Below are positions 23,710-37,633 of a DNA stretch of 64,000 bases, piece after piece; the first letter of the stretch is position 1; every line of letters starts with the position of its first letter. The notes under the pieces were generated by a model. That model ran no database searches and was not told the origin of the DNA. It saw nothing but the letters and a program-made list of their open reading frames with translations. The DNA is from Rhodococcus sp. W8901. Lineage in GTDB: Bacteria; Actinomycetota; Actinomycetes; Mycobacteriales; Mycobacteriaceae. The position numbers and the translations under genes are program-made. Location of the stretch: positions 1,922,001 to 1,986,000 of the forward strand of contig NZ_CP054690.1 of NCBI RefSeq assembly GCF_013348805.1, in the 5' to 3' direction.

Positions 23710-26001
23710 TCAGCGCGGCACCCGTGGCAGGCCTAGCCCATTCACGGCGATCAACTCGCGCTGGACCTCGTTCACCCCGCCGCCGAAGGTCAGAACCAGA
23801 TTGCGCTTCGCCTGGACGTCAAGCCAGGTTGCCAACTCTGCTGTCGCCGGATCGGCGAGATCCCCATGCAGGGCAACGATCTGCTCGAGCTGATCGTAGA
23901 GTCGCTGAATTCGCTCGGACCCGAACACTTTCGTCGCCGAAGCATCGGCCGCACCGATCGGTGCGTTCGCCTCCGCGGCGGCGACCTGCCAGTTCAGTAG
24001 CTCATTGATCCGCTCGGTGGCCCGAGTCTCGATCAATGCCGAACGCACGTCCGGAATGTCGAGCCGGTCGTGTTGGGCGGCCCAAGCGTGGACCTGGTCG
24101 AACAGTCCACCGATCCTTCCCGCGGGACCGAGCATCACCCGTTCGTAGTTGAGCTGTGTGACGATCAATTGCCATCCCTGATTCTCCTCGCCGACAATCA
24201 TTTGCGCTGGAACACGAACGTCGGAGTAATACGTCACATCGACGTGGTGTGCACCATCGGCAGTGATGATCGGTGTCCAGGTGAAGCCCGGATCGCGTGT
24301 GTCGACGATGAGTATCGAGATGCCTTTGTGCTTGGGCGCGTCGGGATCGGTTCGAACCGCGAGCCAGATGTAGTCAGCCGCATGGCCTCCCGTGGTGAAC
24401 GTCTTCTGGCCGTTGACGACGTAGTGGTCGCCCACTCGAACCGCGGTGGTGCGAAGTGACGCGAGATCGGTCCCGTAGTCGGGTTCGGAGTATCCGATTG
24501 CAAAGTGGAGATCGCCGGACAAGATCTTGGGCAGGAAGAACGCCTTCTGCTCGTCGGTCCCGAACGCCTGCAGCGTCGGCCCGACGGTCTGCAATGTGAC
24601 AGACGGTAGTTGAACGTCGGCGCGGTGAGCCTCGTTGACGAAGATGTGTTGCTCGATCGAACCGAAGCCGCGACCGCCGAATTCCTTTGGCCAGCCGACT
24701 CCGAGCCAGCCGTCGCGACCCATCCGACGGACCACGTCTCGGTAGACGGGGCCGTGCCGGTCGACAAGTGTCGTTGCCCGCTCATCGGGCGTCATCAACT
24801 GCTGGAAGTAGCGGCGCAACTCGTCCTGCAACGCGCGCTGAGGTGGTGTGAGTTCGATGAACGTTCCCTGGGCTGTGGCCTTCTCCGCGGGCTCTCGCTC
24901 GCTATCCGTGTCCAACCCGAGGACGTGGCGCGTATGTTCCGACCCGCCCAAGAATCGGCTCAGATCCTTGAGCGTGGAGTAGTGCCTATGCAGGGGGTAG
25001 GTGATGTCTGCCCCCATCCCTCCATGCAGGTGGTGACAAGTCCGAAGGGCGCTCAGCGCCTCGGAGGTCAACCAGTGACAAGCGAGTGCGAGGCTCTGAT
25101 CGGAACTCAAACCGGCGGTGACGCGCCATGCGCCGGCCGAGGCCGCCAGATGCATGGTGCGCGCGGCAATGTACACATCGGCGATCTGCTGCGATACAGC
25201 TTGGAAGCTGGCGAGTGGCTTGCCGAACTGATGGCGTGTCCGGACGTGCCTGGTGGTCAATGTGAGCGCGCCGGTCAGTGCACCGTCTCCGATCGCGACC
25301 GCGCCTACAAGAGCGAAGGTACGCAGCGAGGCCACGGAGGCTCCGCTGAAGTCGTTGCCCAGTACCGCCGAATCATCGACCTGCACACCGGACAATCGAA
25401 TCGTGTAGTCGGGTTGTCCGGATGCAGTGGGAGTCGGTACGAGCTCGACGCCATGGGCTGCCGGGTCGACGAGGAACACTGCAGTGCCGTCGGGGGTTGT
25501 GGCCGGTATCAGCACTCGTGTGGCTTGTGCGGCGAATGGTACCGCGATCTTCAGCCCATCGAGTTCCCAACCGCTGGTGGTGCGGATCGCCGTGGTCCGG
25601 GGTGTGTCGGTCAGGGGATCGCTCAGTTCGCTCGGGGCTCCGGTGATCAGGCTGTCGCCGGTGGCCAGGGCCGGCAACAATTCGGCCCGCTGCGCAACGG
25701 TGCCGTGGGTGGCGAGGGGCAGTACTCCGAGCGCGAGAGCTGCGAAGGCGGGAACACGAGCACCGTGGGCTGAGACTTCGTGTAAGACGGCAGCCACCTC
25801 GGCGGCACCCAATCCGTCACCACCGAGGTCTACCGGAAGTGCCAACGACAGCAGACCGACGTCGGCGAGCGAGGCCCACACCCGCGGGTCGTAGCCGAGC
25901 TGCGGATCCAGGTCGACTCGGCTCAGAGGGTTGGTCTTCTCCAGCACCTCGTTCGTCAGCTCGGCTATATCTCGATGAACGTCGTTCGGGGTGAAATCCA
26001 C
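23710..26001 (-). CDS. fused double acyl-CoA dehydrogenase, FadE34/ChsE3-like
   Basis: A 763-residue protein containing two ACAD modules. Residues ~1-370 are the degenerate type (HVRTRHQFGKPLASFQAVSQQ, LHGGMGADITYPLHRHY). Residues ~385-763 are the canonical type (IGYSEPDYGTDLASLRTTA, LTFGGGVNEVQRELIAVNGLG). This is the single-chain version of the heterotetramer encoded at 20325-22612. M. tuberculosis FadE34 is a comparable fusion acting on C24 steroid side-chain CoA thioesters. A bile-acid or sterol side-chain substrate is inferred from family. Confidence 0.85.
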   Translation of the reverse strand: MDFTPNDVHRDIAELTNEVLEKTNPLSRVDLDPQLGYDPRVWASLADVGLLSLALPVDLGGDGLGAAEVAAVLHEVSAHGARVPAFAALALGVLPLATHGTVAQRAELLPALATGDSLITGAPSELSDPLTDTPRTTAIRTTSGWELDGLKIAVPFAAQATRVLIPATTPDGTAVFLVDPAAHGVELVPTPTASGQPDYTIRLSGVQVDDSAVLGNDFSGASVASLRTFALVGAVAIGDGALTGALTLTTRHVRTRHQFGKPLASFQAVSQQIADVYIAARTMHLAASAGAWRVTAGLSSDQSLALACHWLTSEALSALRTCHHLHGGMGADITYPLHRHYSTLKDLSRFLGGSEHTRHVLGLDTDSEREPAEKATAQGTFIELTPPQRALQDELRRYFQQLMTPDERATTLVDRHGPVYRDVVRRMGRDGWLGVGWPKEFGGRGFGSIEQHIFVNEAHRADVQLPSVTLQTVGPTLQAFGTDEQKAFFLPKILSGDLHFAIGYSEPDYGTDLASLRTTAVRVGDHYVVNGQKTFTTGGHAADYIWLAVRTDPDAPKHKGISILIVDTRDPGFTWTPIITADGAHHVDVTYYSDVRVPAQMIVGEENQGWQLIVTQLNYERVMLGPAGRIGGLFDQVHAWAAQHDRLDIPDVRSALIETRATERINELLNWQVAAAEANAPIGAADASATKVFGSERIQRLYDQLEQIVALHGDLADPATAELATWLDVQAKRNLVLTFGGGVNEVQRELIAVNGLGLPRVPR

Positions 26002-26159: not shown

Positions 26160-26456
26160 TCAGTGAGAATCCGGTTCGACGCCCAGCTTCTCGCACGCGG
26201 CCTGGTACAGCGCGACCACCTCGGTGCGGATCGAGGCGCGGTCGGTGACCGTGCCGACCCAGGGCACCCGCACGGTGCGCTCGGTGCCGTCGACGTCGGC
26301 GGACCATTCGCCGGCCTCGGTGTCCAGCCCGGTCATGCGGGCACCGGTGGCGGCGGGTTCCGCGAACGCGCGGACGATCATCAGGTTGTCGGCGGCGTGA
26401 TCGCCGTTCATGTGGCCGGTCACGGCGGCGACGACGGCGGCGTCGAAGGAGGTCAT
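26160..26456 (-). CDS. DUF2470-domain protein
   Basis: A 98-residue protein with the DUF2470 pattern VTGHMNGDHAADNLMIVRAF, found at the C-terminus of heme-utilisation (HugZ-like) proteins and as stand-alone small proteins in actinobacteria. Its ATG overlaps the MFS stop as ATGA, so it is co-translated with the transporter. Function unknown; a heme link is only by family. Confidence 0.8.
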   Translation of the reverse strand: MTSFDAAVVAAVTGHMNGDHAADNLMIVRAFAEPAATGARMTGLDTEAGEWSADVDGTERTVRVPWVGTVTDRASIRTEVVALYQAACEKLGVEPDSH

Positions 26457-27718
26457 GGGCGCGATCCTAGCTCCACCGTCGGAGGCTGCCGGTCGGCGTC
26501 CAACTCACGCAGGACCGGCAGCGTGAAGCACACGAGCGCCACCACGAGCACCGGTACCGCCAGGACGAAGAACGTGGTCTGGACGCCGACCTGATCGATC
26601 AGCGGGCCGGCCAACAGGAAGCCGAGCGGCCCGGCGGCGTACGCGGTGGAGGTCATCACTCCGACGACGCGGCCACGCATGTGCTCGGGACTGCGGGTCT
26701 GCATGGCCCAGTTGGCGATCGGACCCACCGGCCCGTACACCAGGCCGATCACGACGGACAGGCCGAGCAGCACCCACAGCGGTGGCAGGAACGCCATGCC
26801 GAGCATCGACAATCCGAGGCCGCTGACCGCGATCAGCATCAGGTTCCGGCGTTTCAGGTACGGCGCGAGCGCCCCGTAGGCGAGGGCGCCGACCAGTCCG
26901 CCGATGCTCATCGCCATCAACACCCAGCCCAATTGGGCGGGCTGGCCCTGATCAGTGAAGTACTTGGGGAACAACACCGACTCGATCGGCAGATACAGCG
27001 CCACGATCACCATGTCGACCAGTGCGAGCGTGCGCAGCAGGCGGTCGTTCCACACGAACCGCAGCCCCTCGAGCGTGCCCGTCCACATCGACGCAGGCCG
27101 GGTGGCGTGGTCGGGGCGGCCGGCGTGCTCGAGGCGCAGGAACGCGATCGTCACGATCGACAGGACGAAGCAGACCGCGGTGACCCACAGGGTGCTCTCC
27201 GGGCCGACCAACGCGATCAGGACACCGCCGATGCCGGGACCGACGAGGTAGGCGACGTTGTAGTTGGCCTCGTACAGGCTGTTGACGCGGTCGAGTTTCC
27301 ATCCCGCCGCCCTCGTCGCGGCCGGCAGCATCGATTCGCGCGCCGAGATCCCGGCCGGGTCGAACGTCGCACCGAGCGCGGCCAGCAGCGCGAGCACCGG
27401 CACCGACAGACCGATGGTGCCCGCGACGACCGGGATCGCGGCCACCGACAGCGCGGAGAGTGCGTCCGACACCAGCGACGTGGGGCGGCGGCCGAACCGG
27501 TCGACGACGGTGCCCGAGAACAGGCTCGCCAGCAGCAGCGGAACGGTTGCCGCGCCCGCCACGATCGCGGCGTCGGTGGCCCGGCCGGTCTGCTCGAGCA
27601 CCAGCCACGGCAGCGCGACGATGACGATGCCGTTGCCGGTCGCCGACAGCAGCGTTGCGATGTTGAGCAGAATCAACGGCCCGAATCGTCGGGTGGTGGT
27701 CACGTTCGGGGCGGTCAC
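26453..27718 (-). CDS. MFS transporter
   Basis: A 421-residue 12-helix major-facilitator protein. The GTG at 27718 begins VTAPNVTTTRRFGPLILL; the loop motif VVDRFGRRPT after helix 2 is the MFS motif A. It resembles the enterobactin exporter-like/DHA3 group of actinobacterial efflux proteins. The substrate is unknown. It heads a two-gene unit with the DUF2470 gene. Confidence 0.85.
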   Translation of the reverse strand: MTAPNVTTTRRFGPLILLNIATLLSATGNGIVIVALPWLVLEQTGRATDAAIVAGAATVPLLLASLFSGTVVDRFGRRPTSLVSDALSALSVAAIPVVAGTIGLSVPVLALLAALGATFDPAGISARESMLPAATRAAGWKLDRVNSLYEANYNVAYLVGPGIGGVLIALVGPESTLWVTAVCFVLSIVTIAFLRLEHAGRPDHATRPASMWTGTLEGLRFVWNDRLLRTLALVDMVIVALYLPIESVLFPKYFTDQGQPAQLGWVLMAMSIGGLVGALAYGALAPYLKRRNLMLIAVSGLGLSMLGMAFLPPLWVLLGLSVVIGLVYGPVGPIANWAMQTRSPEHMRGRVVGVMTSTAYAAGPLGFLLAGPLIDQVGVQTTFFVLAVPVLVVALVCFTLPVLRELDADRQPPTVELGSRP

Positions 27719-27825
27719 GTCGGCAGGCCTCTGCTTGCGGGGGCGGGGTGGTTCGAAGCTAACAGTGCGGCCGGGGACCGCGCGAACGGTTTTCAAGCGG
27801 CACCAGCCCCGGCCGCACCACGTCG

Positions 27826-30342
27826 CTACTCGCGGGTGCCGATGGCCTCGACCGGGTCCTGGCGCAGCGCGGTCCGCGTCGGAAGCGCGATCGCGCACAG
27901 CCCCAGCAGGACGGTGACCGCGATGATGCCGCCGTAGACGACGGGGGAGACACTCGGGATCGGCGTACCCGATACGGCCGCCGCGATGCCGGCGAGCGGG
28001 GGGATCGCGATGAGCGTGCCGACCACCGCGGCGACCGACACCACGATCACCGACTCCGTCCGCATCATCCGGTGCACCTGCCGCTTGCTCGCGCCGACCA
28101 GGCGCAGCAGCGCGAACTCCCGGCCGCGTTCGGCGGTCGCCAGCACGAGCGTGTTGACGACGGCGACCGCGAGGTAGCCGAGCAGGACCGCCAGGGCCAC
28201 GATGCTCACCCACGACTGGGTGCGCCGCTGGTCCTGACCGGCGGCGGCGAACTCGGCGCGGTCCGCGACGGCGATCCCGGGCGTCATCTGCAGCGCCTGA
28301 CGAAGTTCGTCGACCCGACCGGGCTCCGCGGTGACCAGGACGACGTCGGCGGTGCCCGCGGTGGTGTGCTCCCGAACCTGCGCGGCCGGCAGCGTGACAT
28401 CACCGAATCCGAGACCGCGGCCGTACGTCGCCACGACGGTCGGGGTGATCAGCGTCCCGTCGCCGAGTCGCAGCGGCACCACCTCGCCCACGCCGGCGCC
28501 CATGTCGAAGGCGGCGTCGAGACTGAGCGCGACGGTGCCGTCCCGCAGCTGTCCCAGATCACCTTCGCGCACATCGAGATCGAGCGTCGACGATGTGGCG
28601 GCGGGATCGATGCCCTGCACCGCGTGGGGCTCGGTGGTGGGGGCCTCGCTGTCGGCGCTGGTGAACAGTGCCTGACTGCGGGTGATCGGATTTGCCGCGC
28701 GCACAGCCGGTTCGGCGGCGATGGCGTCGACCAGTCCCGGCGCCAGCCCCGCGGCACCGCTCACGACGAGGTCGGCGGTGATGCCGCTGCGGGACTGGTC
28801 GTCGGCCGCCGCGGAGATGGTGCTCTGGGTGAACAGCTGCACCGACCCGATCGCGATGGCCAGGGCCAGCGGGGTGATCGCCGCGGCCAGCCGCCGCGCC
28901 CGCGCTCCGGTGTTGGCGGCCGCGAGGACGAGGGCCGGTGACGAACTGCGTCGCATCGGTCCGCCGAAGCGGGCGATCGCGGTCGATACCAGGGCGGGGC
29001 CGAGGAGTGCCGCCGAGATCACCAGCAGCACAGCCGAACTCCCCGCGCCGGCGAGAGCGGCCTGACCCGGCAGGACGGCGGGCAGCAGCGACGTCGCCAG
29101 ACCGCCGGCGGCGAACACGAGTCCGGTCACGAGCCGGCCGCGCCCGATGGTGGCGGGTTCGACCGCGGACTCGCGCAGCGCCTCGGTGGGATCGAGCCGG
29201 GCCGGACGGCGGGCGGCGATCGCGGCCGCGATCCGCGCGGTGCCGACGGCCAGTAGCACGCCCACCACGGCCGGCAGCGGTCCGTACGCCAGCGCGAAGT
29301 CCGACGGGAGCACCCCGGCCTCGGTGAACTGCGCCCGCAGCATGCCGGCGACGGCGAACCCCGGCCACACGCCGAGCACCGCGGCGAGCCCGGCCACCAG
29401 CAGTACCTCGCTGCCGACCAGGCGGTGGATCTGGCCGGGGGTCGCGCCCATCGCGCGCAGCAACGCGAACTCGCGGCGGCGCTGCCGGATCGACAGCGAC
29501 AGCGTGCTCGCGACCACGAACATCGCGATCAGGATCGCCAGGCCGGCGAACGACCCGCACAGCATGATCAGTTCGCTGCGGGCCGCGCCCGCGTCCAGGT
29601 ACTCGACGTCGCCGCGGGCGTCGCCGGTGTAGGTGCGCACATCGCCGTCGGCGAGCGCGCCGCGGGCGCGGGCGGCCAGTGACGATGCGTCGAACCCCTG
29701 CTCGGCGAGCAGCCCCACCGTCGCGACGCGATCGGCGTGCGGCCACAGTTCCTGCGCCCGGGCGTCGGAGAGGAACACCGCCGCCGGGCGTTCGGTCGGT
29801 TCGGACGTCGGCGCGGCCGCCACGCCCACGACGGTGTAGGTGTCACCGATGCCGCCGTGCCGCAACGTGATCCGATCGCCCGGGGCCGCGCCACCGGTGA
29901 CGACCGCCTCCGTCGCGGACGCGGGGGCGCGTCCGGCGGTGAGGGAATACGGCGCGAGGACGGCCGATCCCCAGCCGTGACCGTCGAGCAGCGTGCCGTC
30001 GTCGGTGGTCAGTGGCACGCTCACATCGCCCACCGCGGTACGCACGCCCGGGAGCGCGGCCAACTCGTCGACGGCCGCGGCCGGCAACAGTGCACGCTCG
30101 GCGAACGGCTGGTCGATGTCCTCCTTCACCTCGAGTGTCTGGGGCGCACCGACGACGACGTCGGCCCCGGCGTACCGGTGCGGGGTGACGCCGCCGCGGA
30201 TCCCGGACTCGAACAGCACCCCGAGCGCGCAGGTGAGCAGTGCCGCGCAGAACACCGCGACGAACATCGCCGCGAAGCCGCCGCGTTGTGCGCGGATGTT
30301 GGCGCGGGCGAGGGCCCGCAGTCTCGACCTGCGCATCGTCAC
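27826..30342 (-). CDS. FtsX-type ABC exporter permease
   Basis: An 838-residue permease with two FtsX repeats: helix-rich blocks SLSIRQRRREFALLRAMGATPGQIHRL and LATAERGREFALLRLVGASKRQVHRMM, each preceded and followed by membrane helices, and two large extracellular domains. This is the MacB/BceB-like single-chain architecture of lipoprotein or antimicrobial-peptide exporters. GTG at 30342 overlaps the ATPase stop as GTGA; an ATG at 30336 is the alternative. The divergent two-component system probably controls it. Confidence 0.88.
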   Translation of the reverse strand: MTMRRSRLRALARANIRAQRGGFAAMFVAVFCAALLTCALGVLFESGIRGGVTPHRYAGADVVVGAPQTLEVKEDIDQPFAERALLPAAAVDELAALPGVRTAVGDVSVPLTTDDGTLLDGHGWGSAVLAPYSLTAGRAPASATEAVVTGGAAPGDRITLRHGGIGDTYTVVGVAAAPTSEPTERPAAVFLSDARAQELWPHADRVATVGLLAEQGFDASSLAARARGALADGDVRTYTGDARGDVEYLDAGAARSELIMLCGSFAGLAILIAMFVVASTLSLSIRQRRREFALLRAMGATPGQIHRLVGSEVLLVAGLAAVLGVWPGFAVAGMLRAQFTEAGVLPSDFALAYGPLPAVVGVLLAVGTARIAAAIAARRPARLDPTEALRESAVEPATIGRGRLVTGLVFAAGGLATSLLPAVLPGQAALAGAGSSAVLLVISAALLGPALVSTAIARFGGPMRRSSSPALVLAAANTGARARRLAAAITPLALAIAIGSVQLFTQSTISAAADDQSRSGITADLVVSGAAGLAPGLVDAIAAEPAVRAANPITRSQALFTSADSEAPTTEPHAVQGIDPAATSSTLDLDVREGDLGQLRDGTVALSLDAAFDMGAGVGEVVPLRLGDGTLITPTVVATYGRGLGFGDVTLPAAQVREHTTAGTADVVLVTAEPGRVDELRQALQMTPGIAVADRAEFAAAGQDQRRTQSWVSIVALAVLLGYLAVAVVNTLVLATAERGREFALLRLVGASKRQVHRMMRTESVIVVSVAAVVGTLIAIPPLAGIAAAVSGTPIPSVSPVVYGGIIAVTVLLGLCAIALPTRTALRQDPVEAIGTRE

Positions 30343-31109
30343 CACTCCCCGAGGTGGGTCATGTGGTCGGCGACCGCGGCCGCGGTGGGGGAGTCCATCC
30401 GGCCGACGAGGCGTCCGTCGGCGAGGAACAACACCCGGTCGGCGTGCGCGGCGGCGACCGGATCGTGGGTCACCATGACGATGGTCTGCCCCAGTTCGGT
30501 GGTGGTGCGGCGCAACAGGTCGAGCACCTGGCGGCCGGTGCGGCTGTCGAGTGCTCCGGTGGGCTCGTCCGCGAACACCGCGTGGGGCTGCGTGATGAGC
30601 GCGCGGGCGATCGCGACGCGCTGCTGTTGGCCGCCCGACATCTCGGCCGGGCGACGGTCGCGCTTGCCGTCGAGCCCGACCGCGTTCAGGACGTAGTCGA
30701 GGTGCGCCCGGTCGGCGGCGCGGCCGGCCAGCAGCAGCGGCAGCGTTACGTTCTGCTCCACCGTCAGCGCCGACATGAGGTTGTACGCCTGGAACACGAA
30801 GCCGATGTGGTCGCGCCGGAACACCGTGCGGGCCTTGGGCTCGAGTGAGCTGAGCTCGGTGTCGCCCAGCCACACCGAACCCCGCGTCGGCTGATCCAGC
30901 CCGGCGGCGCAGTGCAGGAACGTGCTCTTGCCCGAGCCGGACGGCCCCATGACGGCGGTGAAACTGCCGGGCGCGAGTGTGAGGCTGACGTTGTCGAGCG
31001 CGGTGACCTCGGCCCGGCCGGAGCCGTACGACTTGGTGACGGCGTCGAGTCGGACGGCGGCCCGAGGCGGGCTCTCGATGAGCGGGGGCGTTGCGGTGAA
31101 GGAGGACAT
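30339..31109 (-). CDS. ABC exporter ATPase, LolD/MacB type
   Basis: A 256-residue ATPase: Walker A GPSGSGKST, Q-loop FVFQAYNLM, signature MSGGQQQRVAIARAL, Walker B AVFADEPTGALD, and MVTHDP. The EPTGALD form is typical of the MacB/LolD/BceA family. It is coupled to the downstream FtsX permease. Its ATG at 31109 overlaps the other strand's ATG at 31108, but that plus-strand start is not used (see the kinase). Confidence 0.9.
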   Translation of the reverse strand: MSSFTATPPLIESPPRAAVRLDAVTKSYGSGRAEVTALDNVSLTLAPGSFTAVMGPSGSGKSTFLHCAAGLDQPTRGSVWLGDTELSSLEPKARTVFRRDHIGFVFQAYNLMSALTVEQNVTLPLLLAGRAADRAHLDYVLNAVGLDGKRDRRPAEMSGGQQQRVAIARALITQPHAVFADEPTGALDSRTGRQVLDLLRRTTTELGQTIVMVTHDPVAAAHADRVLFLADGRLVGRMDSPTAAAVADHMTHLGEW

Positions 31110-31218
31110 GCCCGAAACGCTATGGACGGTGGCGTGCGCGAACCATCCCGTGCGGTACCCGATCGATGGTGTAGCGGGCTATACCGACAGCGGCCCGGTC
31201 GTGCGGCATGCTGGAGCG

Positions 31219-32469
31219 GTGCAGTGGACCGAACGCCTGAACGAGCGGTGGCGCGCCGTCCGCTTCCTCGCGGTCGAGGCCGGCGCCGCCGTCGTCTCGC
31301 TCTGCTTCCTCGTGGTCGGGCTGGTGATCGGGGCGATGCTGATCCTGATCGTCGGCTGGCTCGCGGTGCCCGCGTACGTGCGCGCGCTGCGGTGGTGGGC
31401 GGGCCGGGCGCGGGTGCGGGCCGGGCGGTACACGGGGACCGTGGTGGGCGAGCGGTATCCGCAGATCACGGACCATCCGGGCTTCGACGATCTACGGCGG
31501 CTGCTGACCGCACAGTCCACGCGACGCGACTTTGCGTGGGTCGCCGTGCACTCGATCGCGGCGCTCACGGCGGGTCTGCTGGCGATAGGACTGCCGGCGG
31601 CGGCGCTGAATTCGCTGGCGATCCCGTTCTACTGGTGGGCGCTGCCGCCCGACGAGCCGGTGAGCAGCATCTATCCGGTCACGTCGTGGTGGGGTGCGGC
31701 GCCGATGCCGCTCGTCGCCGTCGGCTACGTGCTGCTGGGGTGGTGGACGATCCCCGCGATGGCCCGGGGCATCAGCGGGCTCGCGTCCCGGCTGCTCGCG
31801 CCGCGGCGGGAAACCGAACTGTCCGAACGGGTCTCGGCCCTGACCGCGAGCCGTGCCGCCGCCCTCGACGCGCACGCCGCGGAGCTGCGGCGGATCGAAC
31901 GGGACCTGCACGACGGTGCCCAGAATCGGTTGGTCGCGGTGGTGATGATGCTCGGTCTCGCCGAACGCTCGCTGCGGGTGGACCCGGATCAGGCTCTGCC
32001 GCAGCTGCTTCGGGCGCAGGACGCCGCGTCGGACGCGCTGTCGGAGCTGCGGACGCTGGTCCACGACATCTATCCGCCGATCCTCGACGAGCTCGGGCTG
32101 GGCGGTGCCGTGTCGGCGCTGGCGGGACGCTGCACGGTGCCGTGCGTGCTCGACGTCGACGGCCTGCGCCGGGCGCCCGCCGCGGTGGAGGCGGCCGCGT
32201 ACTTCGTCGTCGCCGAGGCCCTCACCAACGTCGTCAAGCACAGCGGTGCCGAGCGCGTGCAGCTCACGATCGGCACCCGCGACGACGCGGCGGGGGCGAC
32301 CATGGTGATCGACGTCCTCGACGACGGGCACGGCGGTGCGGTGGAGACCGCGGGCAGCGGATTGGCCGGGATCCGGCGCCGCGTGGCAGCGTTCGAGGGA
32401 ACTATGACCGTGCAGAGCCCGCTCGGCGGGCCGACGAGACTCGAGGTGACACTGCCGTGCGGATTCTGA
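31219..32469 (+). CDS. sensor histidine kinase, NarL-type partner
   Basis: About 416 residues. The N-terminal half is a four-helix membrane sensor of the actinobacterial putative-sensor type (AVVSLCFLVVGLVIGAMLILIVGWL and two later hydrophobic stretches). The dimerisation/phosphoacceptor region has IERDLHDGAQNRLVAVVMML with the His in RDLHDG. The HATPase domain shows EALTNVVKHS and GSGLAGIRRRV. The start is uncertain: GTG at 31219 has GGAG only two bases away, GTG at 31201 is possible, and a leaderless start would explain both. It is divergent from the ABC exporter. Confidence 0.85.
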   Translation: MQWTERLNERWRAVRFLAVEAGAAVVSLCFLVVGLVIGAMLILIVGWLAVPAYVRALRWWAGRARVRAGRYTGTVVGERYPQITDHPGFDDLRRLLTAQSTRRDFAWVAVHSIAALTAGLLAIGLPAAALNSLAIPFYWWALPPDEPVSSIYPVTSWWGAAPMPLVAVGYVLLGWWTIPAMARGISGLASRLLAPRRETELSERVSALTASRAAALDAHAAELRRIERDLHDGAQNRLVAVVMMLGLAERSLRVDPDQALPQLLRAQDAASDALSELRTLVHDIYPPILDELGLGGAVSALAGRCTVPCVLDVDGLRRAPAAVEAAAYFVVAEALTNVVKHSGAERVQLTIGTRDDAAGATMVIDVLDDGHGGAVETAGSGLAGIRRRVAAFEGTMTVQSPLGGPTRLEVTLPCGF

Positions 32470-33101
32470 TCGCCGAGGACGACGCTCTGCTCCGGGAGGG
32501 GCTCGCGCTCCTGCTGCGCAGCGTCGGGATCGAGGTGACGGCTGCGGTCGACGACGCCGAGAAGTTCCTCGCGGCGTTCGAGGCGGATCCGCCGGACGGT
32601 GCCGTGCTGGACGTGCGCATGCCGCCGACGTTCACCAACGAGGGCCTGAAGGCGGCGATCGAGGCGCGGCGGCGTCGGCCCGGATTCCCGGTCCTGGTGC
32701 TCTCGGCATACGTCGAGGACCGGTACGCGGGGGAGCTGCTGTCGGGTGGCGCGTCCGGCGTCGGCTACCTGCTCAAGGAGCGGGTCGGCAAGGTCGAGGA
32801 GTTCGTCGACGCGCTGCGCCGGGTGGTCGACGGCGGGACGGTGATGGATCCCGAGGTGATCTCGCAGCTCATGAGCCGGCGCCGGGCCGACGATCCCATC
32901 CGCACCCTCACCCCGCGCGAATCGGAGGTGTTGGGACTGATGGCGGAGGGGCTCGGCAACGCGGACATCGCCCGCAAACTCGTGGTCAGCGACACCGCGG
33001 TGAGCAAGCACATCGGTAACATCTTCGCGAAGCTCGGACTGTCAGCGTCGGATACCGGACACCGGCGGGTGCTCGCGGTGCTCGCCCACCTGCGCTCCTG
33101 A
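32457..33101 (+). CDS. NarL/LuxR-family response regulator
   Basis: A 214-residue response regulator. Acidic pocket AEDD, phospho-Asp in GAVLDVRMP, Lys in GYLLKERV, then a GerE helix-turn-helix TPRESEVLGLMAEGLGNADIARKLVVSDTAVSKHIGNIFAKLGL. It overlaps the kinase gene by 13 bases from a GTG at 32457. The pair should sense envelope stress or antimicrobial peptides and switch on the adjacent ABC exporter; that target is inferred from gene order. Confidence 0.9.
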   Translation: MRILIAEDDALLREGLALLLRSVGIEVTAAVDDAEKFLAAFEADPPDGAVLDVRMPPTFTNEGLKAAIEARRRRPGFPVLVLSAYVEDRYAGELLSGGASGVGYLLKERVGKVEEFVDALRRVVDGGTVMDPEVISQLMSRRRADDPIRTLTPRESEVLGLMAEGLGNADIARKLVVSDTAVSKHIGNIFAKLGLSASDTGHRRVLAVLAHLRS

Positions 33102-33386
33102 TCAGGCGCTCTCGAGCGCCTCGCCGACCTCCTGCAGCGCGCGGTGGTGCTGATCGGCGGCCAGCGCGTGCCCGGCGGCGATCGCGAGAGCCACGGGCCA
33201 GTCGATCAGCTCGAACGCCGCGAGCAGCCCGAGGGCGGCGAAATATGCCAGCTGTTCGGGCCGGGGCACCCCGATGTCCCCGACGAGCGGGAGCCGGATC
33301 GCGAAGCGCGAGCCCTGGTCGATCTGTTCGAGCGCGGCCTGGTGCGAATCGAGTCGGTGCTGAAGGTCCATGGTTGTTTCGGTCAT
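33102..33386 (-). CDS. small membrane protein coupled to the P-type ATPase
   Basis: A 94-residue protein with one hydrophobic segment (AYFAALGLLAAFELIDWPVALAIAAGHAL). The core (E/D)WPV-A-L-x-x-x-G-x-A-L recurs in the protein encoded at 37630-38133, on the other side of the ATPase gene. Its ATG overlaps the ATPase stop as ATGA. No named family is recognised. Position and coupling suggest an accessory subunit of the pump. Confidence 0.7.
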   Translation of the reverse strand: MTETTMDLQHRLDSHQAALEQIDQGSRFAIRLPLVGDIGVPRPEQLAYFAALGLLAAFELIDWPVALAIAAGHALAADQHHRALQEVGEALESA

Positions 33387-36300
33387 CGTTCGCCCTGCCC
33401 ATCCTCGTCGTTCACCTGCCGGACACCTACGGCCGCCATCGTGGGAGCCGTGATCGTTTCGTTACCTGCACTGTCTGCGTTCGCATCGGCTCTCGCTCCC
33501 TCGCGGACCGATCCGTTGACCGGTGCCGTCGCCGCAGTTCTGACCCCGCCGCTGCGCCACACGTACGCCGTGCTGCTGCGCGCGGGAGTGCTGATCGTCG
33601 ACTGATTCGGCGCGGTGCTGCGTGTCTGCCACCATGTGAGTACCCGGGGTGCCACCGCGGCGGCCGCGGTGGCACCGGCGGCGGACCCGAGGGCCTGCGT
33701 CCATCCGACGGGGCCGAGTGGGGTGCAACCGAGGAACTGGCTGACCCCGGGCGTGCTGACCACCGCGCCGAGCACCGCCAGCGAGCCCACGGCCGTCGTC
33801 ACGACCAGCGGGCTGCGGGAATCGATCAGCGTCTGCCCCAACTGGGCCCCGACGAGCGCGACGAGTCCCACCGTCGACGCCCTGCGCGGGCGGCCGGTGA
33901 CCGAGGCCAGACCCCACGCGACGCCCGCACCGGCCGCGGTCGCCGCGCCCCGCACGGCGACCGTCCGCCACAGTGCGGCCGTGTCCGGCCCGCGGCCGTC
34001 GTAGGCGCGGTCCGGGTTGGGTGGGCTCACCGCGAGCGCCGCCGCCGGTAGCGCGTCGGTGAGCAGATTGACTAGCAGCAGTTGTCTCGCATTGAGGGGG
34101 GCGCGCCCGCTGATCGCGCTCCCGATCAGCGCGAACGCAACCTCGCCGGCGTTGCCACCGAGCAGCACCGACACCGCCGACTGCACCCGCTGCCACAGCT
34201 GCCGTCCCTCGTCGATCGCGTCCAGGATCGCGTCGACGTGGCCGTCGAGCAGCAGGATGTCGGCCGCGCTGCGGGCCGGGTGGCTGCCGTGCGACGCGAC
34301 GCCGATCCCGATGCTCGCGGCCCGGATCGCGGCGGCGTCGTTCGCGCCGTCCCCGACCATCGCGCAGACGTGCCCGGTGCGTTCGAGGGTCTGCACGATC
34401 TGTACCTTCTGCTCCGGCGACATCCGCGCGAACACCTGGCGCTCGCGCACCGCGGTCTCCTGCCGCCGGTGCGACAGCGCCTCCCATTCGGTGCCGGTCA
34501 GCACGTCGCCCGCGTCGAGTTCGAGGCCCAGGTCCCGGGCGATCGCGGCGGCGGTGACGGGGTGATCGCCGGTGATCAGCCGCACCGAGACGTCCCGCTC
34601 CTCGAGGGCGGGGAGCAGCCCGGCGGCCTCGGGTCGGGCGGTGTCGGACAGCCCCAGCAGGCCGAGCGGCTCCAGCCCCCGGCGGCACAGGGATTCGATC
34701 GCGTCGGGATCGTCCGCGGCCCGCGCCGCCTGGTCCGCGGTGAGGGTGCGGCGGGCCACCGCGATCACGCGCAGGCCCTGCTCGGCCATCGTCTGCACCT
34801 CGTCGACGATCGTCTCGAGCGGTGCGGGCGAGGTGCCGGTGCAGGCGGCCAGCATTACCTCGGGTGCGCCCTTGACCACCAGGTCGGTGCCGGTGATCGC
34901 GGCGGCGTACGGGCGGCCGGACCGGAACGGAAGCAGCAGGTCGGCGGTGTCGACGCTGCCCGACCTCTCCCTGGCCTCCACCACGGCGCGGTCGGTGGCG
35001 TGCGCGGCCGCCTTCCCGTCCGCGGTGATCGATGTCCGTGCTGCGGCGTCGACGACGTCGTCGTGGTCGTGCGAGCCGAGGGGCCGGACCGCGGTGACCC
35101 GCAGGCGGTCCTCGCTGAGCGTGCCCGTCTTGTCGAAGCACACGACGTCGACCCGGCCGAGTGCCTCGACCGAACGGGGCGCGCGTACCAGCGCCGACGA
35201 ATGCGTGAGCCGGCGCGCTGCGGCTTGCTGGGCGAGGGTCGCGACGAGGGGCAGGCCCTCGGGCACGGCCGCCACCGCCACGGCGACGCCGCTCGTGATC
35301 GCGGCCTGGAGCCCTCCGCCGCGCAGCATCGAGGTGAGGGTGACCAGCGCACCACCGCCGACGCTGACCGGCAGAACCCGCCGGGTCAACTCGCCCAGCT
35401 GGGCCTGCAGCCCTGTCCGGCCGACCGGTGTCGGCGACAGCGCGGATGCGCGGCCCGTCTCGGTGGCGGCGCCGACGGCGGTCACCACGGCGGTTGCGGT
35501 GCCGGTCAGGACGGTGGTGCCCGAGTAGAGCATGCAGCTGCGTTCGGCGAGGGGGACGCCCGGCGTCGCCTCGGTCTGCTTGTCGACCGGGAGGGATTCC
35601 CCGGTCAGGGAGGACTCGTCCGCCTCGACGCCGTCCGCCTCGATCAGGCGGCCGTCGGCAGGCACCACCTCACCCGGCCGTACCTCGATCACCTCGCCCG
35701 CGCGGAGCAGTCCGGCGGCCACGGCCTCGTGTCCGCCCTGTCCGCCGCCGACCACGCGAGCCGGGGTGTCCTGCACCGCGAGGAGCCGCCGCAGCAGCCG
35801 CTCCGCGTGCAGGCGCTGGACGGCGGACAGTGCGGCGTTGCCGACGAGGACGGATCCGACGAGGATCGCGTCGACGGGGGAGCCGAGCACGGCACTCGCG
35901 GCCGAGCCCGTGGCGAGGATCGGCGTCAGCGGGTCGGACAGCTCGGTCCGCAGCGAGCGCCCGAAATCCCAGGTGGCCTCCACGGGACGCCGCATCCAGG
36001 TCGCCGTCGCGATCAGGCGGCCCGCCCCGGCCGTCTCCGACCGCGGTCCGGGCGTGCCGAGCATGGCGCGGACACGGTCGACGGGCATCGAATGCCAGTC
36101 GTGCTGTGGATCCGGCAGGGGTGTCGCGGCGCGCAGAACCTGTCGAGCCAGCCGGTGGCCGGTCCACAGTGCGGCGCCGGCCCCGGCGCTGACGGGTCCC
36201 GGGCCGCGGCCGTGCGTCCCGGGCAGCATCAGGAGCGATCCGAGAAGTGAAGCGCCGGTGGCAATCTCGATACCGCGGCGACTGGCGGTCCGGGCCGCCG

Positions 36301-37633
36301 GGACGGCGCGCACCACCCGCCATGCGGCCGCCAGGTCGGGGACGAGGAGGTCGCAGTCGGTGGGCGGCGGGGCGCCGCTGCGCACGAGCCCGATCCCGAC
36401 GTCCGCGGTCGCGAGTGCCCGCGGACAGTCCGCGGCGAGAACCGCCACCGACGCGCCACCGTCCCGCAGGTTCAGTGCCATCTCCAGAAGGTCGGAATCG
36501 ACTGCGCCGGTGGGCTTCCGGAGCTCGTCGAACGCCGAGCGCAGGGTTCCGAGGGCGTCGTCGTCGATCGAGTGGACGGTCATGGCGGACCGTCGAATCT
36601 GTTCGAGCAGGCCACCGGCCAGGGGATCGCGAACGGGCGCGACCAGCACCGCGGCGTCGGGGTCGTCGGCGACGTCTGCCACCTCCGACAGTTCCGCGAG
36701 TCGATGCCAGCCCTGCCCGAGCACTCCGTCGTCGACGGCGGTGCGGGCCACGTCCCAGACGCGCGCCCGACGGTCCTCCGCAACGCCCCGGATCCGGCTC
36801 ACCCGCAGATCAGTGGTCAACAGCGCACGCGGGTCGACGACCAGCGCGGTCACGCAGTCGATCCGACGCAGCACGTCAGGGCCGCGGCACAGCACGCGGT
36901 GATCGGTGACCAGTCCGCGACCGAGCGCGCTCGCGAAGGACTCACGTGCGGTGCGGGCCGCCTTCGGGGCCGTCACCAGAGCCGTCGTCCCGGCCGTGCG
37001 GAGACTGCCGGTGGCGGCACCGACGGCCACCGAGCCCGCGAGCTGTACCCACGCGGCCCGCTCGAGATGGCGATCGACCGCGCCGCTGGGGGGAGCGGTG
37101 TCGGCGGGCGTGCTCCGGGGGAGGGGACTGCGCTGCCACGCGCGCCGGTTGGCGACCACCTCGCCCACCACCGACGCCCGCAGCAGCGCCTCGACCGCGA
37201 GAGGGGCCGGCGCCTGCGCGGCCGCGAAGCCGGCGGCCGTCGCGGTCGACAGGACCAGGTCGGTGCCGACGCGACCGAGCCCGGCCTCCAGGAGCCGGCG
37301 CAGCCGCGGTTGGTAGTCGAGGACCGTCACCGGCGCGGCCAGCGCGAGGGGAAGCCGCGGCAACGTCAGGATCCGTCCCGCCGTCGCGAATCCGAACCCG
37401 ACGGAGTGGGCGGCGAGCGCGGCCACACGGGCGCGGAGCACGGCATCGTCCCAGGCCGGCGGCGGTGGACGATCGGTGCCGGGGGAGTCGGCCTGTCGAG
37501 GCGCGAGCAGCGCGGTCAGCACACCCGCGGTCGCGGCGGTGCCGACGACCGCCGTCGTCAGTGCCGTGTCCAGGCTCCGGCGGGGCAGTGCGCGTGCCTG
37601 CCCCAGTAGTGCCCCGACCCCCGCGATCCTCAC
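33383..37633 (-). CDS. giant P-type ATPase with N-terminal pseudo-ATPase half, CtpI-like
   Basis: 1,416 residues from a GTG at 37633 (GTGA overlap with the gene before). The active half (residues ~570-1350) has the A-domain TGES near 676, PEGLP in the membrane, DKTGT near 833 and GDGANDA near 1092: a complete ion pump, with PEGLP as in P2-type (Ca2+/Na+-like) pumps. The first ~560 residues resemble a second P-type ATPase of P1B style. VLCRGPDVLRRIDCVTALVVDPRALLT lines up with the usual ...DKTGTLT block, and VAVLAADCPRALATADVGIG with ...GDGxNDAPAL...; both catalytic motifs are lost and no A-domain is visible. Length and layout match M. tuberculosis CtpI. Transported ion unknown. Confidence 0.85.
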   Translation of the reverse strand: MRIAGVGALLGQARALPRRSLDTALTTAVVGTAATAGVLTALLAPRQADSPGTDRPPPPAWDDAVLRARVAALAAHSVGFGFATAGRILTLPRLPLALAAPVTVLDYQPRLRRLLEAGLGRVGTDLVLSTATAAGFAAAQAPAPLAVEALLRASVVGEVVANRRAWQRSPLPRSTPADTAPPSGAVDRHLERAAWVQLAGSVAVGAATGSLRTAGTTALVTAPKAARTARESFASALGRGLVTDHRVLCRGPDVLRRIDCVTALVVDPRALLTTDLRVSRIRGVAEDRRARVWDVARTAVDDGVLGQGWHRLAELSEVADVADDPDAAVLVAPVRDPLAGGLLEQIRRSAMTVHSIDDDALGTLRSAFDELRKPTGAVDSDLLEMALNLRDGGASVAVLAADCPRALATADVGIGLVRSGAPPPTDCDLLVPDLAAAWRVVRAVPAARTASRRGIEIATGASLLGSLLMLPGTHGRGPGPVSAGAGAALWTGHRLARQVLRAATPLPDPQHDWHSMPVDRVRAMLGTPGPRSETAGAGRLIATATWMRRPVEATWDFGRSLRTELSDPLTPILATGSAASAVLGSPVDAILVGSVLVGNAALSAVQRLHAERLLRRLLAVQDTPARVVGGGQGGHEAVAAGLLRAGEVIEVRPGEVVPADGRLIEADGVEADESSLTGESLPVDKQTEATPGVPLAERSCMLYSGTTVLTGTATAVVTAVGAATETGRASALSPTPVGRTGLQAQLGELTRRVLPVSVGGGALVTLTSMLRGGGLQAAITSGVAVAVAAVPEGLPLVATLAQQAAARRLTHSSALVRAPRSVEALGRVDVVCFDKTGTLSEDRLRVTAVRPLGSHDHDDVVDAAARTSITADGKAAAHATDRAVVEARERSGSVDTADLLLPFRSGRPYAAAITGTDLVVKGAPEVMLAACTGTSPAPLETIVDEVQTMAEQGLRVIAVARRTLTADQAARAADDPDAIESLCRRGLEPLGLLGLSDTARPEAAGLLPALEERDVSVRLITGDHPVTAAAIARDLGLELDAGDVLTGTEWEALSHRRQETAVRERQVFARMSPEQKVQIVQTLERTGHVCAMVGDGANDAAAIRAASIGIGVASHGSHPARSAADILLLDGHVDAILDAIDEGRQLWQRVQSAVSVLLGGNAGEVAFALIGSAISGRAPLNARQLLLVNLLTDALPAAALAVSPPNPDRAYDGRGPDTAALWRTVAVRGAATAAGAGVAWGLASVTGRPRRASTVGLVALVGAQLGQTLIDSRSPLVVTTAVGSLAVLGAVVSTPGVSQFLGCTPLGPVGWTQALGSAAGATAAAAVAPRVLTWWQTRSTAPNQSTISTPARSSTAYVWRSGGVRTAATAPVNGSVREGARADANADSAGNETITAPTMAAVGVRQVNDEDGQGER

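Follow-up and report, generated by a model that had tools for sequence, protein, structure and literature searches.

A double-length actinobacterial P-type ATPase of the CtpH/CtpI kind appears to carry a decayed P1B pump in front of a P2A pump

We analysed a 64,000-nucleotide stretch of the Rhodococcus sp. W8901 genome (contig NZ_CP054690.1, positions 1,922,001 to 1,986,000; hereafter the window), which carries on its minus strand a gene (P0001; 33383..37633 in window coordinates, used throughout) for a single P-type ATPase of 1416 residues. Judged from alignments and predicted structure, the N-terminal half of this protein (N-half; residues 1–505, 36119..37633) is very probably a decayed P1B heavy-metal ATPase, a pseudo-P1B pump, while the C-terminal half (C-half; residues 561–1416, 33386..35953) has the motifs of an active P2A-type pump and is in all likelihood one. 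We think it probable that the protein arose by an ancient head-to-tail fusion of a P1B and a P2A pump, in which the dead first pump has become a built-in non-catalytic partner of the second. A sequence-only reading of the window had proposed an inactive P1B-like partner joined to an active P2-like pump; sequence and predicted fold support this pairing, while the pseudo-heterodimer mechanism attached to it is something we infer. That reading had passed over an eroded HMA region at the N-terminus and the barely hydrophobic helices of the N-half. In the passages of PMC3573892 and PMC10654040 that deal with them, CtpH and CtpI form the P2-type group FUPA24, uncharacterised and with an unexplained large N-terminal segment; the latter, a 2023 review, places the two proteins in isolation in its tree and lists their double length among the open puzzles. 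The window protein fits this group by architecture, as it has the roughly twofold length (1416 residues) and the confinement of motifs to the C-terminal half (residues 677–1100) by which FUPA24 (TC 3.A.3.24) is defined in the relevant part of PMC3573892.

With hhalign, 83 non-redundant N-halves (drawn from 135, and retaining L129, whose DKTGT lies near the end and whose C-half is incomplete) aligned to 11 intact P1B pumps over 422 columns, with a probability of 98.2 and a score of 118.6; decoys, made by reversal and by 20 column shuffles per template, reached 22.0 at most. The path of the alignment runs through the HMA domain and the helices, leaves a gap at the P1B A domain, and then takes in M4 and the sites of phosphorylation and of GDGxND. 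Thus the P1B likeness earlier claimed for the first ~560 residues stands, but the stretch ends sooner, with the junction near residues 505–513. Across six reference rows the N-half scored 89–119 with P1B pumps, versus 61–75 across nine reference rows with 17 standalone P2 pumps. Residues 1–175 matched P1B with a probability of 72, and the protein's own C-half with 0.1. Among 46 N-half members, PF00403 (HMA) gave sub-threshold matches in 16, the best at 0.0069, and PF00122 and PF00702 matched in none. A profile of the N-half run against PDB sequences found the solved HMA domains of copper ATPases, ranked below a rhamnose-binding protein that is considered further on.

The predicted structure agrees with this assignment. 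An AlphaFold2 model of residues 1–560, computed together with 45 relatives, had a predicted local distance difference test score (pLDDT) of 86 and a predicted template modelling score of 0.84. Residues 1–60 (37454..37633), modelled with low pLDDT, make up the eroded HMA-domain region, which in relatives is a recognisable HMA domain. They are followed by helices that align with MA, MB, M1 and M2 in both hhalign and the model (residues 63–168, 37130..37447), by a short linker in place of the missing A domain (169–184, 37082..37129), and by helices that align in the model with M3 and M4 (185–245, 36899..37081). M4 is broken at residues 221–223, a break typical of real P-type pumps. Next come a pseudo-P domain with a reduced remnant of the N domain (252–432, 36338..36880), recognised by hhalign, the model and Foldseek alike, and helices that correspond in the model to M5 and M6 (433–501, 36131..36337), the closing helices proper spanning 434–468 and 479–501. 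When the model was compared with the PDB by Foldseek, the ten best matches were all P1B pumps of the CopA, ZntA or ATP7B type (4bbj at 1.1e-10), with KdpB, MgtA and Ca2+ pumps ranked lower among 113 matches at E<=1e-3. A second model, of a 640-residue homologue from Mycobacterium (L066; pLDDT 88), contained in addition an HMA-like beta/alpha domain at residues 51–124, and its ranks 1–9 were again P1B structures, with ATP7B on top. A P domain set on helices in the P1B order, as had been expected of residues 1–560, is therefore what both predicted models contain.

The catalytic sites of this pump have been replaced. In the hhalign alignment APK (222–224, 36962..36970) pairs with the CPC metal site, VVDPRALLT (265–273) pairs with VVLDKTGTVT, so that DPRALLT (267–273, 36815..36835) stands for DKTGTLT, and AADCPRALATADVGIG (400–415, 36389..36436) pairs with the GDGvNDAAALATADLG stretch and stands for GDGxNDAPAL. 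The degenerate segments that had been picked out by eye at these places are thereby confirmed. The A domain, likewise reported missing, is indeed absent between residues 168 and 185, and in all 83 N-halves the interval at its expected place is down to 20–66 residues. The companion statement that the "P-loop motifs are gone" used the wrong term, as P-type ATPases have no P-loop. Degeneracy extends across the homologues: DKTGT occurs in 0 of 83 N-halves and the catalytic Lys after the Asp in 0 of 83, and a basic residue occupies the M4 metal site in 79 of 83 (P-K in 64, P-R in 14, H-K in one; other residues in four). Ten more distant actinobacterial rows are degenerate too: all ten have P-K or P-R at M4, and nine keep the Asp. 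The CxxC of the HMA domain was seen in 0 of 46 and 1 of 83 sequences, in the latter case at the start of the open frame and ahead of the aligned part. Strings such as TGE[SA] (five cases), GDG..[DN] (one), CPx, TGD and PEG do turn up inside N-halves, and were discounted as they lie off the aligned sites. As aligned and modelled, the N-half has lost the requirements of catalysis: GDGxND, CPC and the A domain are gone, as is most of the N domain, and of DKTGT only the Asp is left. Other positions have been kept. P223 and R256 are near-invariant (82 of 83 each), and conservation is highest at the start of the pseudo-P domain, in the M4 stalk and in M5.

The C-half, by contrast, appears to be the complete pump that the sequence-only reading had described. 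It contains TGES (677–680, 35594..35605), PEGLP (791–795, 35249..35263), the phosphorylation site DKTGT (834–838, 35120..35134), KGAPE at 921, TGDHP at 1021 and GDGANDA (1094–1100, 34334..34354), so that every P2A motif looked for (TGES, PEGL, DKTGT, KGAP, GDGxND) is present. Pfam placed E1-E2_ATPase at 622–810, Hydrolase at 828–1106 and Cation_ATPase_C at 1178–1325, and the best NCBIfam model was that of PMR1-type Ca2+ pumps (TIGR01522; 314.9 bits, under its cut-off of 798.3). NAGE in M5 and NLLTD in M6 (residues 1161–1193, 34055..34153) stand at SERCA-type Ca2+ ligand positions. We take the PEG, NxGE and NxxTD positions to be the SERCA ligands E309, N768, E771, N796, T799 and D800; all six are present, E908 in M8 falling outside this comparison. 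TGE and PEG are kept in 51 of 51 non-redundant C-halves, and GDGxND, NxGE (M5) and NxxTD (M6) in 37 of the 37 that are long enough, the other 14 being cut short. Since the rows were chosen by DKTGT, its presence in 51 of 51 is not evidence.

The pairing of the two halves looks old and obligate, as far as can be told from sequence, because the fused C-halves form one clade and every C-half-type match lies in a fused frame. The N-half profile matched in 15 of 41 relatives, 129 of 298 genomes of the order and 58 of 296 of the class; these samples overlap, the order and class searches scored four candidates per genome, and the class figure counts two or more ordinary P1B pumps, G379 and G473 among them. 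All 134 P2-type entries collected with DKTGT beyond residue 780, which include repeats of one gene, have exactly one DKTGT. In a tree from which L094 and L104 were dropped, 37 fused C-halves grouped together (support 100), separate from the standalone P2 and P1B pumps. (L094, of Prescottella defluvii, and L104, of Mycolicibacter icosiumassiliensis, are copies of the fused gene with a broken frame.) A C-half profile, built from fused rows some of which come from the genomes searched, gave 17 matches above 900 bits (948–1138) in 118 genomes of the class at eight candidates scored per genome; all 17 lie in frames of 1459–1728 residues, none is a C-half without an N-half, and the next-best match was at 589 bits in an 861-residue frame. 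Much longer fused frames (1784–2006 residues) were seen in L120, L121 and L137. Pairwise identities of the N- and C-halves are strongly correlated (Spearman 0.83 over 55 rows; 0 of 1000 permutations as high), which speaks for constraint on the N-half.

A phylum-wide search (four candidates scored per genome) matched in 30 of 296 genomes and found a distant fused form, L209–L212. Seven weak matches, in frames of 730–892 residues, are possibly ordinary P1B pumps; L223, the only one checked, is such a pump. In L209 the N-half has two HMA-type stretches above the Pfam cut-offs (HMA_2, 4.4e-10; HMA, 1.7e-5) and retains a stretch resembling an A domain, its TGESLP changed to TGPDGLP, with IDGPRVLT in place of DKTGT and SDNANAAAAF in place of GDGxNDAPAL. 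A profile of the four rows aligned with P1B over 610 columns with a probability of 99.4; KGA[PS] was not found by pattern in their C-halves. In a C-half tree rooted on 17 standalone P2 pumps, the L209 lineage (three rows) was sister to 42 other fused forms, with supports, by a quick method, of 99 for the 42 and 91 at the root. By its sequence L209–L212 is a living intermediate of the decay, early-branching and with a degenerate A domain. Its features and position suggest an order in which inactivation came early, the A domain was lost later, and the HMA domain was eroded last, in Prescottella. The relatives thus present a decay series in HMA domain, A domain, N domain, metal site and hydrophobicity. 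The joint itself lies at residues 505–530 (36044..36121), which are Cation_ATPase_N-like in distant relatives and include W513 and H514, invariant in 46 alignment rows and conserved at 0.99–1.0 in the 83-row set. In seven distant N-halves scanned, Cation_ATPase_N directly after M6 was above the cut-off in two (L217 and L218), below it in three and not found in two. With Cation_ATPase_N right behind M6, the fusion would have joined two complete pumps, a P1B and a P2A one, and the N-half closes with two helices, like P1B pumps, instead of six.

The helices of the N-half follow the P1B order but are strikingly polar. Windows of 19 residues with a Kyte-Doolittle value >=1.6 number 5.5 per P1B pump (4–8) and 5.1 per C-half (2–8), against 1.0 per N-half (0–3). 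By individual helix, MB, M1, M2 and M4 have a mean hydrophobicity of 0.20–0.41 and 1.4–2.6 charges per 18 residues, while MA, M3, M5 and M6 are still marginally membrane-like (0.45–0.56). MB is amphipathic in real P1B pumps as well. The best eight windows of P1B pumps average 0.70 with 0.3 charges, a figure biased in favour of P1B as it takes the best windows of whole proteins; the window count, which treats all sets alike, agrees with the contrast. To our knowledge there is no topology experiment on these proteins. The polar helices would either be kept in the membrane by packing on the C-half, or the dead pump may lie partly out of it. The weak hydropathy agrees with the disagreement of topology tools on CtpH and CtpI noted in the pertinent section of PMC3573892, where ten helices were put in the C-half.

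Several observations weigh against a P1B origin of the N-half, or against its being dead. Pfam found no match in the window protein's own N-half (before residue 622) at E<=1. The top match of the N-half profile among PDB sequences, above the P1B domains, was the rhamnose-binding protein (9e-6 and 1.1e-4); we rejected this identity, as the match covers part of the pseudo-P domain and is absent from the best 50 Foldseek matches of both models. Template modelling scores (TM-scores) to P1B structures, by query and over ranks 1–9, are modest, at 0.32–0.39 for the model of the window protein, with a root-mean-square deviation of 8–12 Å, and 0.29–0.38 for L066, likewise with large deviations, because of which we take the Foldseek ranking, and not the superposition, as evidence. 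The helix regions alone (60–185 and 425–520) gave no significant hhalign score, so that these helices are assigned by collinearity and by the model. In 75 of 83 N-halves the phospho-Asp column still reads D. Lastly, the N-half could be a decayed copy of the protein's own P2-type C-half, produced by internal tandem duplication. Indeed, the whole N-half scored 104.3 with its own C-half, inside the P1B range and with a P1B margin that varies with the reference row, and residues 240–440 alone scored 98.3 with the C-half versus 89.3 with P1B; hence neither the hhalign score alone nor the P domain alone, slightly nearer to the C-half, would decide. Such a duplication is nevertheless very improbable. 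It leaves residues 1–175 without a counterpart in the C-half, as well as the HMA domains of relatives and the ending after two helices, and standalone P2 pumps score well below P1B pumps. The HMA domains, the two-helix C-terminus, the Foldseek ranking and the higher hhalign scores together argue for P1B and not P2.

How would a dead P1B pump serve a live P2A pump? The ancestral N-half would have had the order HMA, MA/MB/M1/M2, A, M3/M4, P/N, M5/M6, followed by the whole P2A pump. The C-half would export a divalent cation, most likely Ca2+, through an ordinary E1/E2 cycle, and the dead N-half would stay folded at its side, a non-catalytic partner within the same chain. The start of the pseudo-P domain, the M4 stalk, M5 and the Trp-His junction may pass on the motions of the active half or restrain them. 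Since a basic residue has taken over the old metal site, and M1, M2 and M4 are eroded, the N-half would no longer carry ions. Built-in counter-charges occur in other P-type pumps, and by analogy one might guess that this residue prevents cation binding and locks the dead half in one state. That the N-half acts as an intramolecular regulator or scaffold is, on balance, the somewhat likelier case. A fuller picture, which we offer tentatively and with more doubt than confidence, has M1, M2 and M4 (with MB) too polar to cross the membrane unaided, and the dead pump as a partly solubilised regulatory domain lying on, or shielded within, the active Ca2+-type pump; this pseudo-heterodimer would have arisen once, early in Actinomycetota, the phylum searched, with no C-half found without it. 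The N-half might instead be a passive anchor or a functionless remnant that persists simply by being in frame, and its faster evolution (35% mean pairwise identity versus 50% for the C-half) and the stepwise loss of parts of the HMA, A and N domains are what one would expect of that. Its presence in 17 of 17 C-half-type matches, its near-invariant P223, R256, W513 and H514 and its confidently predicted fold make this unlikely. A composite transporter, in which the N-half adds an ion path or a substrate gate much as KdpA does for KdpB, has a precedent in KdpFABC, where, according to the excerpted accounts of that system, the path of a P-type pump includes a second membrane domain, and KdpB comes next after P1B in the Foldseek ranking. 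It is quite improbable given the basic residue at the former metal site and the charges in M1, M2 and M4. The retained Asp267, found also in most of the more distant rows, could make the N-half a slow or conditional phospho-acceptor, that is, a sensor and not a dead domain; however, the catalytic Lys and the A domain are missing in all 83 rows, GDG..[DN] is missing at its aligned place, and H, E or S replaces the Asp in eight, so that we give this possibility very little credence.

This arrangement shares features with several known systems. The N-half has the predicted fold and domain order of P1B heavy-metal ATPases (CopA, ZntA, ATP7B), but lacks their DKTGT, CPC, GDGxND and A domain, and its helices are weakly hydrophobic. 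The C-half shares motifs and ligand positions with P2A Ca2+ pumps of the SERCA/PMR1 type; unlike them, it falls below the TIGR01522 cut-off, forms a separate branch and was found only fused. In KdpFABC too, as the excerpts describe it, a P-type pump cooperates with a second membrane domain, although KdpA resembles a channel rather than a decayed P-type pump, and the subunits are separate polypeptides. The apicomplexan guanylyl cyclase–P4-ATPase (GC-alpha) likewise fuses a P-type ATPase domain to another working enzyme; there the partner is a cyclase and the appended P4 activity is essential, according to the title of PMC7858053, whereas here the fused domain appears to be dead. Pseudo-enzymes that regulate active kin are described, in the extracts consulted, for kinases, phosphatases and proteases. 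Among the texts listed by literature searches there was no report of a P-type pseudo-ATPase fused to an active pump, and none calling the N-terminal segment of CtpH/CtpI a P-type pseudo-ATPase, though the founding FUPA paper (Chan et al. 2010) may note the similarity. The cited parts of the CtpH/CtpI papers give this segment no identity and put ten transmembrane segments in the C-half; here we identify it as a decayed P1B pump. This reading would explain the double length of CtpH/CtpI proteins, two of which belong to the tuberculosis bacterium, and would alter topology models of proteins of this type.

The gene on which this analysis rests, delimited in the same way by the sequence-only reading, is real, with a frame open throughout from 37633 to 33383. 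The same frame extends 5' as far as 38197 if a longer start is allowed; we rejected this start, as its first 188 residues overlie an upstream open reading frame (ORF), P0003, in a different frame. The GTG start fits best, because it overlaps the stop of P0003 by 4 nucleotides (GTGA) and because in four relatives (L013, L015, L016 and L018) the open segment starts at the same VRI. The genome, a single contig of 5.71 Mb, has nine PF00122 matches, the fused pump gene among them, and it belongs with Prescottella/Rhodococcus: the best named N-half relatives are from R. hoagii and other Prescottella/Rhodococcus (60–68% identity; very near records were possibly omitted), and most named relatives are from Mycobacterium, Mycolicibacter and Rhodococcus/Prescottella.

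P0003 (37630..38133, minus strand) encodes 167 residues, rich in glycine and alanine with a Lys/Thr-rich tail. It matched no Pfam family, and we rejected a DUF1490- or PacL-like identity because no such match appeared at E<=1. Of 91 fused loci flanked on either side by 700 bp or more, 21 have a relative of P0003 within 1 kb of the pump and on its strand, all 21 from Prescottella, Rhodococcus or Mycobacterium. We rejected P0003 as a general third component on this count; it is a candidate small partner of the pump in this sub-branch.

Elsewhere in the window, a 763-residue ORF (23710–26001, minus strand) has two stretches of each of three acyl-CoA dehydrogenase Pfam domains. It is perhaps another fused pair, FadE34-like, with two acyl-CoA dehydrogenase cores in tandem. 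A 729-residue ORF (30912–33101, plus strand) ends in a receiver domain (518–622) and a LuxR helix-turn-helix (665–710), with no strong Pfam match in its first 500 residues. An ORF for MFS efflux (26453–28213, minus strand) came closest to the NCBIfam model Tap, at 562.9 bits versus a cut-off of 625.

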